From a virus: a DNA stretch of 27,638 nt. The stretch spans positions 1 to 27,638 of the IMG/VR virus record IMGVR_UViG_3300042924_006323; one strand, written 5' to 3'. Below the pieces are notes generated by a model, which searched no databases, was not told the origin of the DNA, and saw nothing but the letters and a program-made list of their open reading frames with translations. Of this stretch, positions 4,514 through 19,380 are shown piece after piece. The number at the start of each line of letters is the position of its first letter. The first letter of the stretch is position 1. The position numbers and the translations under genes were made by a program.

Positions 4514-6028
4514 TCATGAGAGTTCGACCCCCATCTTGTACTTGTATGTCATCTTGAATTGGAGAGGCCAGCGTGACTTGACCTTCACTCCGTTCTTCAT
4601 CTTCTTCAATGCGTCGACCGCTTCGGTGACGTACGGGAGAACGATGATGTTGTTCTTGATGCAGTAGTTGATGCACTGCATTCCAAGCAAGCCCGAGTAG
4701 CCACCGCTTGTCGGGCACACACCGCCGTCTGTCACCCAAATGATCGGTGAGCGAGACGACTGACGGTTCTTGACTGCCCACTCAATTGCAGGGAAGTCGA
4801 CGCCGTTGCCGTGTCCGAACACGTCAGGCAGTTCGTTGACCATCTTGCCCTTGTCAGCAATGACCCACATGTTCGGACCAGTGTTGCCACGGTCGGTGTA
4901 AGCGACGACAGTTGCCCCCGGAGCATTCTCCACCATCTGACGAATTTGGTCATGAGTGAATGACATTGACCCCGATGCGTCGATGACGACGATGCCACCA
5001 GTCCCACGACTGACCTTGTCAAAGATTCGCTTCTCAGGGTCAGTCAGCAAGCGATGAATTCGGCGTGGCGCACGACCCATGTTCGATGCGATGCGCTTCT
5101 TGCCGATGTTGCCCTTCGTGTGCTTCGGCATTGCGCAACGTTCGATGCGGAGTTCTCCCCACTGCGGTGGCACTGTGCCGTTGTACTGATCGGGCGTGAT
5201 TCCCTTGTACGGGTTGCCAGTTGCAGAACCTTCACCAGCACCGCCAGCGTTGGAGTGTCCACCAGCAGGGTTGTGCTTCTTCGGGCGACCACGCTTGCGT
5301 GGTGCTTGGCTCTCTCCTGCGTTCTCGCTCTCGCTCTCTCCCTCGCCTGCGCCAGTCGACTCAGCGACGCTCTCAGTCGGTTCTTCGGGAACAATGCTTG
5401 CAAGACGGTCGACCCACTCAGCGATGCGCTCAACGTGCGAGAAGCCAAGCGGTGCGAGACCAGTGCGCTTGTCGACCTCAGTCGATGCGAGCGTTCCAGT
5501 CTTGTACGCCTTCTCCATCTCCTTGACTGCTCGCTTGGCAATGTCAGTGAGGATGACTCCCCACTCACGGTTGTGGCGACGCACACCGTTCAGGAATGCC
5601 TTGTTCGATGCAGTGCCAGCAGTTGCGATGTTCATGAGAACGGCGCCATGCCAGTCCTTCGTCGCACTGACACGCTCGCCGTCAGCGGTCTCACCGCCGT
5701 CAGCCAAGTTGCCCTTCACGTCAAAGCCAGCCTTCTGACAGAGCAGGTTGACACGCAGTTCCTCAACGACAGTCATTGCCTTGTCAGTGGCGATCTTGCG
5801 TTCAATCCAGCGAGGGTAGGACTCAGCAGGAGAGACCTTTGCATGCATGAGTTCGTGGGCACGAATGACACGGGCAAGATCAGTGTCGTGAGTCGGAACC
5901 TTCATCTCGCGACCGACGATGTTGGTCATCGGCTCTCCGCGACGAGGGTTGCACTCGCTGACTGACCAGTTGCCGTGAGGTGTATCACGGCGACCGATCA
6001 GTTCAGGTTCAGCGATGATGGTGTTCAT
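4514..6028 (-). CDS. HExxH metallopeptidase-like / AT-hook / VWA protein, partner of MoxR-type ATPase
   Basis: 504 residues in three parts. Residues 58-62 read HELMH (HExxH zinc motif), with glutamates near 89-90 that could be the third ligand. Residues about 215-275 are a low-complexity E/S/G/A linker containing KRGRPKK (about 246-251), an AT-hook core. Residues about 343-470 are a VWA domain with an intact MIDAS: DASGS (350-354), GNGVD (407-411) and the TDG at 433-435. This resembles the DUF2201 pairing of a putative metallopeptidase with a VWA-like domain. VWA proteins of this kind work with MoxR/CbbQ-type AAA+ ATPases as metal-insertion or protein-remodelling machines. The start overlaps the ATPase stop (TAATG), so the two are translationally coupled. 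The target is unknown; the AT-hook suggests DNA proximity. Confidence 0.8.
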   Translation of the reverse strand: MNTIIAEPELIGRRDTPHGNWSVSECNPRRGEPMTNIVGREMKVPTHDTDLARVIRAHELMHAKVSPAESYPRWIERKIATDKAMTVVEELRVNLLCQKAGFDVKGNLADGGETADGERVSATKDWHGAVLMNIATAGTASNKAFLNGVRRHNREWGVILTDIAKRAVKEMEKAYKTGTLASTEVDKRTGLAPLGFSHVERIAEWVDRLASIVPEEPTESVAESTGAGEGESESENAGESQAPRKRGRPKKHNPAGGHSNAGGAGEGSATGNPYKGITPDQYNGTVPPQWGELRIERCAMPKHTKGNIGKKRIASNMGRAPRRIHRLLTDPEKRIFDKVSRGTGGIVVIDASGSMSFTHDQIRQMVENAPGATVVAYTDRGNTGPNMWVIADKGKMVNELPDVFGHGNGVDFPAIEWAVKNRQSSRSPIIWVTDGGVCPTSGGYSGLLGMQCINYCIKNNIIVLPYVTEAVDALKKMKNGVKVKSRWPLQFKMTYKYKMGVELS

Positions 6029-6759
6029 TACGCACCAACCTTGTCCACTGCAATTGCGTCGATGATGGATTCGGCACGTTGTCCGAAAGTGAGACGGGCT
6101 GCTTTTTCGTCGCCGTAGGCCTTGCGGATTTTGTCGAATGCCATGAATGCTCGCAATGAGATTCGGCGTTCGCCAGCGTCAGCCATGCGCACTGCGTAGT
6201 TGCGCAGATCAGGAGAGAGAGCCAGCAGAGCGGTCGGGTGCGGAGCGTTGATGCGGATGCGGATGGGGAAGCGGTCAGCCAGTGCGGTCGGCAGTTCTTC
6301 CATGTTCTCCACGTTCGTGGTCATGATCGCAGAGAAGCCGTCCTTCGGTCGGTGGATGCGTCCGCTCTCAGGGTTCTCCCACGTTGCCGACTCAGGAGAG
6401 TCCAGCATGGCAAGCAGAGTGGCGAACACGTCGCCCGATGCCTTGTCGACTTCGTCCACGATGAGACGACCGCCGACGATGCCGTTGCCTTCCCATGCCT
6501 TGACAGCAGAACCGTAGTTCCAAGTGAACGTGCCCTTTTCGTTCGGCATGAATGCGCCAGTCACGTCAGCATTGGTCATGTCCTCAGTGCAGACGAGACG
6601 GTAGGCACCGCCCTCAACATTTCCCATGTTGAGACCTGCGTAGGTCTTGCCGATGCCTGACGGCCCGAACAAAATGATTCGGTCGATGCCAGCGTTGAGA
6701 CAGTCCTCAAATGCTTGCCAGCATTCAGGGAGCGTCGGGTTGGTTTGGGTGGTGGTCAT
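6028..6759 (-). CDS. MoxR/CbbQ-type AAA+ ATPase
   Basis: 243 residues with all core AAA+ parts: Walker A GPSGIGKT (32-39), Walker B LIVDEVD (99-105), sensor-1 MTTN (146-149) and an arginine-finger candidate in ADRFP (161-165). It most resembles the dynein-related/CbbQ/NorQ/GvpN group. These ATPases form hexamers that, with a VWA partner, remodel or activate a client, often by inserting a metal. The partner is encoded immediately downstream with a 1-bp overlap. The ribosome site is TTGAAAGGGG, and a 31-bp promoter lies at 6808-6838 with a leader containing CTACTAC. Confidence 0.85.
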   Translation of the reverse strand: MTTTQTNPTLPECWQAFEDCLNAGIDRIILFGPSGIGKTYAGLNMGNVEGGAYRLVCTEDMTNADVTGAFMPNEKGTFTWNYGSAVKAWEGNGIVGGRLIVDEVDKASGDVFATLLAMLDSPESATWENPESGRIHRPKDGFSAIMTTNVENMEELPTALADRFPIRIRINAPHPTALLALSPDLRNYAVRMADAGERRISLRAFMAFDKIRKAYGDEKAARLTFGQRAESIIDAIAVDKVGA

Positions 6760-7509: not shown

Positions 7510-7582
7510 CCGGGGCTTTCTAGCTGCATCTGCCCCGCCGGAGCCCCGTTGGTCCATGGGGCGCGCGGGGCTTTGGAACGCC

Positions 7583-11647: not shown

Positions 11648-12205
11648 TCAGGCTGAGACTTGCTCGGGCTGGAACAAGGCGACCTGCCCCAAGTCACGAG
11701 GGAAGAGCCCTGCGTCGATGGATCGAGCGAGGGCCGGGTCTCGTTGCACCGAGAAGAACATCGGAAGCTTCAAGACCATTTTGCAGTCCCCGACCGAGAG
11801 AGCACCCTCTTTGTCCATGACTACCACGACGTCGTCGTACTCCGTGTAGGAGTTGAAGAGAGTGGAGCGACGGAGAGCGAGGTAGTGGTTCTGCGTCACC
11901 AAGTGGCGCACCCAGTCCTCGTAGTCATCGGGGAACGAGTCAAGGGCCGTACCTGCGTCTACGACGACGTAGCCCTGTGTCTGGTTCACCATCTCTACGA
12001 TGTTGAAGTTCACCCTCTGTGCGCCTTCTGCGACGATGACTCGCACGTGGCTCTTATTCGTCAAGACCGACATAGCATCGTCGTTTAGGGCAATGAGAGT
12101 GACTGTCTCTTGCTTTTCGTTGGCGAGCCAGCAGGCGAAGCCCACTGCCGAGGTGGTGCAACCCACCCCACCTTTTACTGACTGGAACACATGAACTCTC
12201 TTCAT
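11648..12205 (-). CDS. ParA/MinD-like P-loop ATPase with altered Walker A
   Basis: 185 residues from ATG 12205 (ribosome site GAAAGGGGTGAAC). The N-terminus MKRVHVFQSVKGGVGCTTSAVGFACWLA is a deviant Walker A of the ParA/MinD/CpaE type. The signature lysine (K11) is present, but the lysine normally in GKTT is Cys16 (GCTT). VVVDAGT near residue 80 is the Walker-B-like strand. Family members position DNA or protein complexes by ATP-driven dimerisation; loss of the second lysine, as in CpaE/TadZ-like members, often goes with weak or no ATP hydrolysis. Two perfect parS-like sites lie at 24.56 and 25.04 kb, but no ParB gene is visible. It is the first gene left of the putative origin, with the 31-bp promoter at 12244-12274. 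Confidence 0.75.
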   Translation of the reverse strand: MKRVHVFQSVKGGVGCTTSAVGFACWLANEKQETVTLIALNDDAMSVLTNKSHVRVIVAEGAQRVNFNIVEMVNQTQGYVVVDAGTALDSFPDDYEDWVRHLVTQNHYLALRRSTLFNSYTEYDDVVVVMDKEGALSVGDCKMVLKLPMFFSVQRDPALARSIDAGLFPRDLGQVALFQPEQVSA

Positions 12206-12243
12206 GTTCACCCCTTTCAGGTGCTGTTGTTTGGAACGATGGC

Positions 12244-12274
12244 ATTCTATCAAGTCGTCTAGCCCATGCTACAG
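12244..12274 (-). promoter_or_regulatory. 31-bp array promoter M7 (ParA-like gene)
   Basis: CTGTAGCATG, CTAGACGA, -10 TAGAAT; leader with ACAGCACC and GAAAGGGG. Confidence 0.8.
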
Positions 12275-12420: not shown

Positions 12421-12451
12421 GTGTAGCATGATCTAGGTGACTCGGTATAAT
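12421..12451 (+). promoter_or_regulatory. 31-bp array promoter P1 (gene 12458)
   Basis: GTGTAGCATG, CTAGGTGA, -10 TATAAT; 6 nt to ATG, leaderless. Confidence 0.8.
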
Positions 12452-12457
12452 GGTGTC

Positions 12458-12631
12458 ATGAAAACCTACTTCACCAATGACGGAACGTTCGGCAGTGCCA
12501 ACGATGACGACATTTTCATCGTAGATACCAGCGCCTTCACTGAAGATGACTGGAACGACATCGAAGAATGTTCCGACTCTGCCCGAATGGCAATGGCGAA
12601 AGAGATAGCAAAAGAAAGAGGTGTAGCATAG
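12458..12631 (+). CDS. Hypothetical 57-aa acidic protein, leaderless
   Basis: MKTYFTNDGTFGSANDDDIFIVDTSAFTEDDWNDIEECSDSARMAMAKEIAKERGVA. TATAAT (12446-12451) lies 6 nt before the ATG, so the transcript should begin at or next to the start codon. The stop TAG is part of the next promoter (GTGTAGCAT), so gene end and promoter overlap. Not recognised. Confidence 0.75.
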   Translation: MKTYFTNDGTFGSANDDDIFIVDTSAFTEDDWNDIEECSDSARMAMAKEIAKERGVA

Positions 12632-12651
12632 CCTAGGCGACTTGCTATACT
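12621..12651 (+). promoter_or_regulatory. 31-bp array promoter P2 (candidate ncRNA 12658-12870)
   Basis: GTGTAGCATA, CCTAGGCGA, -10 TATACT. The first bases overlap the stop codon of the gene at 12458. No ORF follows. Confidence 0.8.
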
Positions 12652-12657
12652 GAATAC

Positions 12658-12870
12658 AGAAAGAAGCGAGAAGCCTCTCGCCTCTCTCTCTAACAACCTA
12701 GATGCAACCCGTCCCTCCGCAGATAAGGCTCTGTCGGCAGATAAGGCTCTCCGTGTGCTAGCCACGCGAACCGTCCTCTTCCCCGCACACCCGTCCTCTT
12801 GGCGCGATACGGCTCTCTCTAGGGAGGGGACGCCCTCGGTTAGGGAGTGGGGCGAGAGGCTTTTTGTTTT
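12658..12870 (+). ncRNA. Candidate structured non-coding RNA (about 210 nt) with its own promoter and terminator
   Basis: The 31-bp promoter at 12621-12651 drives no ORF. The transcript's 5' part (12671-12694) pairs with its 3' part (12839-12862) in a 24-position helix with one mismatch and two G-U pairs, and the 3' strand runs into TTTTTGTTTT, a typical terminator. A second helix, CGTCCCTCC (12710-12718) with GGAGGGGACG (12823-12832), continues inward with one bulge. The interior has two tandem pairs: GCAGATAAGGCTCT at 12719-12732 and 12737-12750, and CCGTCCTCTT at 12771-12780 and 12791-12800. A CGTG/CACG hairpin lies near 12752-12767. It is not tmRNA, RNase P RNA or a tRNA as far as I can see. 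The end-to-end closed shape recalls 6S-like RNAs, but this is only an analogy. Confidence 0.7.
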
Positions 12871-12920
12871 CCTAGCTGAGCCCCGGCCCTACATGGGATA
12901 AACGGGGCTTCATGGCGAAG

Positions 12921-12993: not shown

Positions 12994-13401
12994 ATGAGCA
13001 AGTCCCTATCGGTAAAGGTGAGTACCGCAAAACTCATCAAGGCACTGGAGTCGGCTCTCGCCAAGCGCGAGAAGGAAATCGCTGACTACGACAAGGCGCA
13101 CGACGCATACACCAAAGAGCGTGAGGCGTTCATCAAGAACCTGCCGAGCCTCATCTCTACAAAGAGCCTGACTCTTTGCGACACAAACCTCAACGAGCGA
13201 GCATGGAAGTCGGAACTCCCCGAGGTCATGTTCACCTACAAGTTGAGCCCTGCCGTCAAAATCCCCAAAGCACCCGAAGCCGTGTCCTATCACGTTCGTA
13301 ACGAGTGCGAGGAAATCCGCAACGCCATCGCCATTCTCAAGATGACCGATGACGAGACGGTAAGCACCAACTCCTACAAGGGCGTGGCTCAGTACATCTG
13401 A
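12994..13401 (+). CDS. Hypothetical 135-aa protein with N-terminal coiled coil
   Basis: Residues about 12-50 (KLIKALESALAKREKEIADYDKAHDAYTKEREAFIKNL) are a likely coiled coil; the rest is unrecognised and ends SYKGVAQYI. The leader has CTACTACACAGCAAAGGAAGGAAC before ATG. Promoter at 12921-12951; single-gene unit. The stop lies in a GTGGCTCA/TGAGCCAC hairpin. Confidence 0.75.
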   Translation: MSKSLSVKVSTAKLIKALESALAKREKEIADYDKAHDAYTKEREAFIKNLPSLISTKSLTLCDTNLNERAWKSELPEVMFTYKLSPAVKIPKAPEAVSYHVRNECEEIRNAIAILKMTDDETVSTNSYKGVAQYI

Positions 13402-13575: not shown

Positions 13576-13923
13576 ATGAAAACAGCACCTACCCCAACCG
13601 AAACTCTGGAACTCTTCGTAGAGGAGAGCCTGAAGCAGGGTTCGTCATTCTTCTCCCCCGAAACGATGGAGTTTTTTGACAGCAAGGTTCACGGCGGATT
13701 TTGGGAACTTGACCAAGACATTCCGTTTCGTGGCTACTTCATCACATCAGAGCAGTACGACGTGACCTGTGAACGCTTGTTCTCGGTTCGTTTCGCAGAA
13801 AGCCCGATCAACATTGACACGGTGGGCGACTTTCAGAGGTTTGACACCTATGAAGAGGCAAAAGCGCACATTCTGGAGATCATGCGTAACGACATGGCTG
13901 GCAGAGGTGGCTGGAGAGACTGA
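13576..13923 (+). CDS. Conserved actinophage-type 115-aa protein, leaderless
   Basis: The sequence 'FFSPETMEFFDSKVHGGFW...', then a beta region and 'FDTYEEAKAHILEIMRND', resembles small actinophage proteins of unknown function. TAAACT ends 6 nt before the ATG, so the mRNA is probably leaderless. The beginning ATGAAAACAGCACC contains a partial ACAGCGAC-type element. Confidence 0.75.
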   Translation: MKTAPTPTETLELFVEESLKQGSSFFSPETMEFFDSKVHGGFWELDQDIPFRGYFITSEQYDVTCERLFSVRFAESPINIDTVGDFQRFDTYEEAKAHILEIMRNDMAGRGGWRD

Positions 13924-18702: not shown

Positions 18703-18771
18703 CACTCTCGCTACCGGGGCTCGGAACGGTGGGGCAGGCAAAGCGCGAAGCTGAAGCCCCGTATGCCAAAG

Positions 18772-18867
18772 GCAAGAGAGGGAGCCTGTCGGCTGCCCGA
18801 TCCGCTTACTCCAGCGGTGACCAACCGATTAGGGTCTACCTTGTACCCTCTTCAGTCCCTCTCTTGT
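18772..18867 (-). ncRNA. Candidate antisense-strand non-coding RNA (about 95 nt)
   Basis: The minus-strand 31-bp promoter at 18874-18904 lies back to back with the plus-strand promoter at 18906-18936 and drives no ORF. The predicted 5' end (about 18867) begins with CAAGAGAGGGA (18856-18866), which pairs perfectly with TCCCTCTCTTG (18773-18783): an 11-bp closing stem with the RNA's first base next to it. The interior contains short hairpins on the minus strand (CCGCT/AGCGG; TCGG/CCGA; GGGT/ACCC). It could end at the GC-rich inverted repeat around 18715-18763. It does not look like a tRNA. Confidence 0.5.
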
Positions 18868-18873
18868 GACTCC

Positions 18874-18904
18874 AGTATACCAAGCCCCCTAGCCCATACT
18901 ACAC
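18874..18904 (-). promoter_or_regulatory. 31-bp array promoter M8 (candidate ncRNA, no ORF)
   Basis: GTGTAGTATG, CTAGGGGG, -10 TATACT. One base separates it from the opposite promoter P14. Confidence 0.75.
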
Positions 18905-18905
18905 G

Positions 18906-18936
18906 GTGTAGCATGGCATGGGTGAGTCGGTATAAT
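18906..18936 (+). promoter_or_regulatory. 31-bp array promoter P14 (gene 18943)
   Basis: GTGTAGCATG, ATGGGTGA, -10 TATAAT; leaderless; back to back with M8. Confidence 0.8.
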
Positions 18937-18942
18937 GACGGC

Positions 18943-19380
18943 ATGACAACGACAAAATCACTCCACGTAAAGACGGACGGAACTTTCACAGAACTGTCCA
19001 TGTCAAGCAACTATCAGGCAATAAACGACTTGGTTGGCGGTTGGTTCGATGCCGTTCGGGGAGAGGACTTCGTGGTGTATGTCCACGACGAGGGTCTACT
19101 CATCGAGGGGTTCGAGCCGAACGTGTTCGCCACCATGCTCACGGGTCGGGTTATCTTCGGTGACGTGGTCATCGTGGGCGCACTCAACGAGAACGGCGAG
19201 TACGACGGGGAGAACCACGACGTACCCGAAATCGTGGTGAACTTGGCGCACAATGAATGTCTCCGTGTGAACACGAGCGAGTCCTACCGTCAGCGAGTCA
19301 TTGACGGACGTAACGAAATCATGCGAGACCCGATTCAGGTCTACGGGCAAAACGCAGACGGCGAGTGGGAGAGGGTCTAG
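18943..19380 (+). CDS. DUF3846-like protein, 145 aa, leaderless
   Basis: Start ATG 18943, 6 nt after TATAAT. The stretch NDLVGGWFDAVRGEDFVVYVHDEGLLIEGFEPNVFATMLTGRVIFGDVVIVGALNENGEY fits the DUF3846 pattern ('lvgG.fdav', acidic 'n.eG', 'N..A'), a family of small phage/plasmid proteins of unknown function. The C-terminal part is unrecognised. The start ATGACAACGACAAA carries a variant leader motif. A dispersed-repeat copy follows the stop. Confidence 0.75.
   Translation: MTTTKSLHVKTDGTFTELSMSSNYQAINDLVGGWFDAVRGEDFVVYVHDEGLLIEGFEPNVFATMLTGRVIFGDVVIVGALNENGEYDGENHDVPEIVVNLAHNECLRVNTSESYRQRVIDGRNEIMRDPIQVYGQNADGEWERV

Follow-up and report, generated by a model that had tools for sequence, protein, structure and literature searches.

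A predicted family of free-standing structured phage RNAs built around nested copies of one internal-loop module

What does a phage promoter transcribe when no open reading frame follows it? The question is raised by a 27,638-base IMG/VR virus contig, analysed here over its whole length and referred to as the window. The window carries 22 copies of an array promoter, against none expected from shuffling, and for 20 of the 22 an ORF of 50 aa or more starts 5-42 nt downstream. Since for many copies the start codon lies exactly 5 nt past the matched promoter sequence, most early genes of the window are probably leaderless. The copy at 12620-12652 is one of the two that depart from this rule, with no such ORF start for 341 nt, and the ORF that comes next has its own promoter at 12920. 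The array promoter without an ORF behind it, which a preliminary description had proposed at this place, is borne out.

A promoter followed by a predicted structured RNA

The genes around the locus are 11648-12253 (ParA-like), 12437-12631, 12994-13401 and 13576-13923. Inverted repeats of the form AGCCCCG...CGGGGCT lie between genes at 7542, 11566, 12380, 12879, 17742, 20011, 20805 and 23094, frequently immediately 5′ of an array promoter, and look like repeated terminators. The predicted elements of the locus, all on the plus strand, are as follows.

12620-12652, array promoter: exact match to the array consensus, -10 element TATACT at about 12646-12651, predicted start at about 12657-12660
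12659-12872, non-coding RNA gene of roughly 210 nt, its ends placed from the promoter and the U-tract
12671-12694, 5′ arm of the closing helix P1, AAGCCTCTCGCCTCTCTCTCTAAC: 23 of 24 positions pair with 12839-12862; covariation
12697-12702, 5′ arm of P2, CCTAGA: pairs with TCTAGG at 12818-12823, pair probability about 0.94
12709-12712, 5′ arm of a P3-type helix, CCGT: pairs with 12809-12812 (helices 3 and 4 of the covariation count)
12722-12732, module 1, 5′ half, GAUAAGGCUCU: conserved in nearly all members
12740-12750, module 2, 5′ half, GAUAAGGCUCU: conserved
12752-12766, apical hairpin CGTG/CACG between the halves of module 2; the flanking pair varies
12769-12778, module 2, 3′ half, AA CCGUCCUC: nested complement of 12740-12750
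12789-12798, module 1, 3′ half, AC CCGUCCUC: nested complement of 12722-12732
12809-12823, 3′ arms of the P3-type helix (12809-12812) and of P2 (12818-12823): covariation, pair probability
12824-12837, hairpin P5, GAGGG-GACG-CCCTC, in a three-way junction: pair probability about 0.94
12839-12862, 3′ arm of P1, GTTAGGGAGTGGGGCGAGAGGCTT: pairs with 12671-12694
12861-12870, U-tract TTTTTGTTTT, seen in the sequence directly after P1

The closing helix of 24 positions, the second long-range helix continuing inward (P2) and the terminal U-tract had all been described beforehand, and each is found in the window. P1 consists of 23 pairs and one U.U (12685/12848), while in 60 dinucleotide shuffles 24-position helices reach 20 pairs at most. 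The whole fold is predicted at -96 kcal/mol (z = -3.67), and none of 200 shuffles is as stable. Together with the U-tract, P1 looks like an intrinsic terminator, although the tract is not conserved among the relatives. The fold, the covariance-model match at 12679-12854 (53 bits, E = 2e-14) and the lack of a plausible ORF start within 341 nt support a non-coding RNA gene at 12659-12872. On comparative grounds its product is very probably a non-coding RNA that stands free, has a promoter of its own and belongs to a new family; its expression is inferred from that promoter and from conservation.

The other array promoter with no ORF within 341 nt lies on the minus strand at 18873-18905 and precedes a second candidate non-coding RNA (18770-18872, minus strand; about 95 nt, z = -4.1) that is unrelated to the first. 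In a homolog of this candidate on contig G001 (24107-24181, L227:12085-12200; z = -6.2), both strands of the closing helix have changed and the core CUGAAGAGGGUACAAGGUAGACCCUAAUCGGUU is invariant; the candidate has no Rfam match.

Relatives and compensatory change

Pattern scans of IMG/VR and covariance-model searches place relatives of the RNA on 19 further contigs of that collection, which represent two or more phage lineages, making 20 contigs with the window. The pattern of two copies of GATAAGGCTCT separated by 3-20 nt has 21 matches in 2.9 million viral contigs, of which all but three coding or chance matches (L127, L136 and L139) are true relatives. Patterns for a single module contributed a truncated copy (L185) as well as L262 and L265, two contigs with one further, more divergent type. 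An independent pattern that combined only the 3′ halves with the P4 hairpin, and was free of the GATAAGG motif, returned known or truncated members and coding chance matches only, a result that speaks against GATAAGGCTCT being an artefact of the way members were found. The 14-mer GCAGATAAGGCTCT is too short as a probe by itself (119 matches, mostly chance). Beyond known members, a looser pattern gave only coding-sequence or chance matches, including all 30 of those in genome contigs; its spacing limits miss many true members, and its genome scan is weak evidence of absence.

The 135-aa protein encoded next to the RNA (12994-13401) led to four related contigs, one of which carries two RNA homologs. 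No RNA was found in three relatives of the window (G002-G004), so it may be dispensable there, though these contigs may be fragments. On G001 a one-module mini RNA (L220; 13000-13650, minus strand) sits just past the stop codon of the homolog of gene 12994-13401.

The preliminary description had named a covariance-model search, compensatory change in the closing helix and comparison with Rfam, 6S RNA included, as checks on its proposal of a new structured RNA, and the proposal stands on all three: there are homologs, compensatory changes run through the closing helix, and Rfam offers no match. A covariance model (R1) built from an alignment (A4) of three relatives of one clade, without the window, finds all members in a search of 530 kb, the window scoring 53 bits (E = 2e-14). 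In the alignment used for pair counts, which was fitted to the structure and hence leans towards it, 93.4% of paired cells are standard over 18 distinct rows, against 42-49% after the partners have been shifted by 1-3 columns, and the covariation score is 0.42 against 0.07-0.11 in these shifted controls. Two MAFFT alignments (A1 and A2) misplace the modules and were left out of these counts. Both sides change in 47 of the 61 modelled pairs, including 15 of 16 in P1, 6 of 7 in P2 and 4 of 5 in P5, and G.U pairs are frequent (pair 15/298, for example, is G-U in five sequences). Given no structure, RNAalifold recovers P1, P2 and P5 in the window's group, and P1, P3, P4 and the GA/UC pairs of the modules in the other subgroup. 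The comparisons leave us highly confident of a predicted architecture in which P1 leads into a three-way junction (P1/P2/P5), then a second junction (P2/P3/P4) and finally a rod of nested modules; P4 is missing from the window's subgroup.

The preliminary description had also noted two tandem duplications and read them as repeated binding modules. The repeats are real (GATAAGGCTCT at 12722-12732 and 12740-12750, CCGTCCTC at 12771-12778 and 12791-12798), and the idea of repeated modules is broadly sound; rather than independent motifs, they are the strands of two nested modules. The consensus joins a 5′ half, GAUAAGGCUCU, to a 3′ half, AYCCGYCCUC, according to the scheme GA-UAA-GG-CUC-U / A-Y-CC-GYCC-UC: GA pairs with UC, GG with CC, and the U that follows CUC with the A that precedes YCC, leaving the internal loops UAA/GYCC and CUC/Y. 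The register of GG is ambiguous, as it may pair with CC or, as GGC, with GYC through G-C/G-U pairs; variants of the third module favour the former, and the latter would account for Y being C or U.

In the predicted nesting, the 5′ half of module 1 pairs with the outer 3′ half and that of module 2 with the inner one, an assignment drawn from paired-half changes in four members. L133 (12615-12821), the second RNA copy of one phage, has GUUAAGG in module 1, matched by CCGUCCAC in the partner half; L135 has a third, apical module in which GAUACUG faces CAGUCCC; L218, a paralog of L135, has an ordinary helix in place of both halves of module 1; and in L262 both halves of module 1 are altered together. 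The pairs between modules, UGU/ACA (12732-12734/12787-12789) and CGG/CCG, have probabilities of about 0.8-0.9, and the pair flanking the apical hairpin (90/172) is A-U, C-G, U-A or G-C depending on the member. Module number ranges from one in L220 through two in most members to three in L135. A search of 2.03 Mb of fetched loci for two nested modules with complementary flanks gave 11 distinct sequences, all of them members, and every module found sits within these RNAs, none in an mRNA leader, with the exception of one mini copy. The loops and flanks of the module are near-invariant while every surrounding helix changes by compensation, a pattern that fits a recognition site presented by a scaffold.

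Carriers and known RNA families

Two sets of members can be told apart by their neighbouring genes. The first (the window, G001, G006, G009 and G013) has genes for a phrog_33218 protein and an AAA ATPase in common, and the second (G005, G008, G010, G012 and G016) shares other genes; two lineages with different terminases both carry the RNA. In the window, the phrog_33218 gene adjoins that of the AAA ATPase (4514-6759, minus strand), and the pair, kept in all relatives of the window's lineage, probably encodes cooperating proteins of unassigned role. A DUF3846 protein (18763-19380, plus strand) occurs in nearly all contigs of both lineages, with or without the RNA; as an array promoter (18905) falls inside this ORF, its true start probably lies downstream. 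The comparison of neighbouring genes revealed no phage protein family confined to the RNA carriers and present in all of them.

The terminase of G006 is 44% identical to those of Gordonia phages, and that of G005 is 61% identical to those of Microbacterium phages and 89% identical to that of Actinomycetia phage DSL-LC01, a lake metagenome assembly with Actinomycetia as predicted host (PMC10611076). The window phage probably infects lake Actinobacteria. The covariance model gives no match beyond chance in DSL-LC01, Pumpernickel, A3Wally, GMA2 or Schomber; DSL-LC01 contains TAAGGCTCT twice but no module, and was rejected as a carrier. Comparison of the region with annotated phages by blastn gave short chance matches only. 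The module was not found in the 395 Actinomycetes genomes searched, which leaves unsupported the idea that it simply mimics a host RNA carrying this site, and a single weak covariance-model match among 396 Actinomycetota genomes is no more than chance predicts (E = 0.008) and lacks the canonical module.

Several contigs carry two diverged full copies of the RNA. Most relatives have a -10-like hexamer 18-23 nt upstream of the point where P1 begins in the model; the next gene's promoter, of the same type, comes closely after P1, and the unit therefore behaves as a movable promoter-plus-RNA cassette.

Rfam 15 has no match in the window at gathering thresholds, and a relaxed search with the window region and three relatives gave nothing inside the RNA even at E < 5. 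Neither 6S RNA (RF00013) nor GOLLD, ROOL or OLE gives a covariance-model match to the window RNA, which at only ~210 nt is far smaller than the latter three. Like 6S RNA, the phage RNA is about 200 nt long with a long rod and a closing stem, but 6S RNA, which binds sigma70-RNA polymerase and templates pRNA, has an open, promoter-mimicking bubble at its centre where the phage RNA has nested conserved modules. With CsrB/RsmZ-type sponges it shares a free-standing form and one recognition element in several, variable copies; those sponges, however, expose GGA hairpin loops, of which no repeats were seen in the aligned members, whereas the phage RNA holds a double-stranded internal-loop module in a rod and is carried by phages predicted to infect Actinobacteria. 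GOLLD, ROOL and OLE are likewise ornate RNAs first known through comparative genomics, without sequence or Rfam relation to this one. ANTAR targets carry a pair of hexaloop hairpins, with A as the first loop base and G as the fourth; here the loop would be UAAGGC, starting with U, and nested pairing is better supported. A type III toxin-antitoxin RNA was rejected because the halves are nested, not head-to-tail, and the four neighbours match no toxin family, and a protein-coding gene because overlapping ORFs vary in strand, frame and length among members and no start lies within 341 nt. A full-text search for the 11-mer returned unrelated papers only, and the open literature, searched for phage RNAs of such design, contained no description. 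Racrs (RNA anti-CRISPRs) are phage-encoded non-coding RNA decoys that mimic the CRISPR repeat (PMC10651486); the phage RNA, also non-coding, differs in being a structured scaffold with several internal-loop modules. The family is new; its broad kind, the free-standing structured phage RNA, is already known.

Possible roles of the RNA

Our tentative preference is for a multivalent decoy or ligand-binding RNA directed at a host factor. The module would be a putative binding site for one conserved actinobacterial factor, a protein or, less likely, a small molecule, and by making a stable multivalent RNA from the promoter array the phage would titrate it while taking over the cell, in the manner of CsrB-type, 6S or anti-CRISPR decoy RNAs. 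A decoy or scaffold fits the constant loops, the variable number of modules, the repeated gene copies and the spread over two lineages, and a host-side partner is the more economical guess, since no phage protein family is seen solely and always with the RNA.

Cis action on the transcribing RNA polymerase is unlikely by comparison. HK022 put RNA is a phage RNA with conserved internal-loop features that acts in cis in leader transcripts, suppressing termination of the transcript it belongs to, and a similar structure at the start of the transcript could promote read-through into the next gene. Most relatives lack the U-tract, and in them the next promoter directly adjoins the 3′ arm of P1, so that the next gene could be co-transcribed; in the window, however, helix and U-tract make a self-contained unit and a separate promoter (12920) serves the next gene, the RNA has no Rfam match even at E < 5, and the neighbouring genes differ between copies that move and duplicate. 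We regard as quite improbable a small RNA acting in trans by pairing with mRNAs or ribosome-binding sites through C/U-rich stretches, an idea for which the CCUCCUCU stretches of some members (L125 and L142), resembling an anti-Shine-Dalgarno sequence, might speak. The preliminary description had pictured CCUCUU copies in this role, a suggestion that finds no support: the conserved part is CCGYCCUC, not CCUCCU, its UC pairs with GA of the other half of the nested module with compensatory change, and the next UU/CU varies. Near-invariance over two phage lineages is, moreover, unlike a seed that tracks its targets.

A scaffold or oligomer made of RNA only, with the modules as quaternary contacts, would suit a phage-associated, highly structured RNA with repeated invariant internal loops, but the much smaller size of the phage RNA, the lack of an Rfam match and a module number that may fall to one make a counterpart of GOLLD, ROOL and OLE very unlikely; RNAs of that type are described as homo-oligomers (PMC12286853). 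An element acting as DNA, such as a single-stranded hairpin for replication, packaging or recombination, would be preserved by compensatory change too, yet the frequent G.U pairs, the position at a promoter whose predicted start falls at the base of P1, and the occurrence of several copies per genome on either strand render it extremely improbable.

A distinctly improbable variant of the host-factor decoy, in which the module is an aptamer or protein-binding site for a host defence signal or effector and the RNA a sponge that disarms an anti-phage system, would, if true, make it an RNA counterpart of the protein sponges Tad and Acb, whose capacity would depend on the number of modules, from one to three, and on duplication of the gene. 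The design is unusual, with nested repeats of one near-invariant internal-loop module and varying numbers of modules and gene copies, and the module could serve as a small bait RNA for identifying the host components bound by phages of freshwater Actinobacteria.
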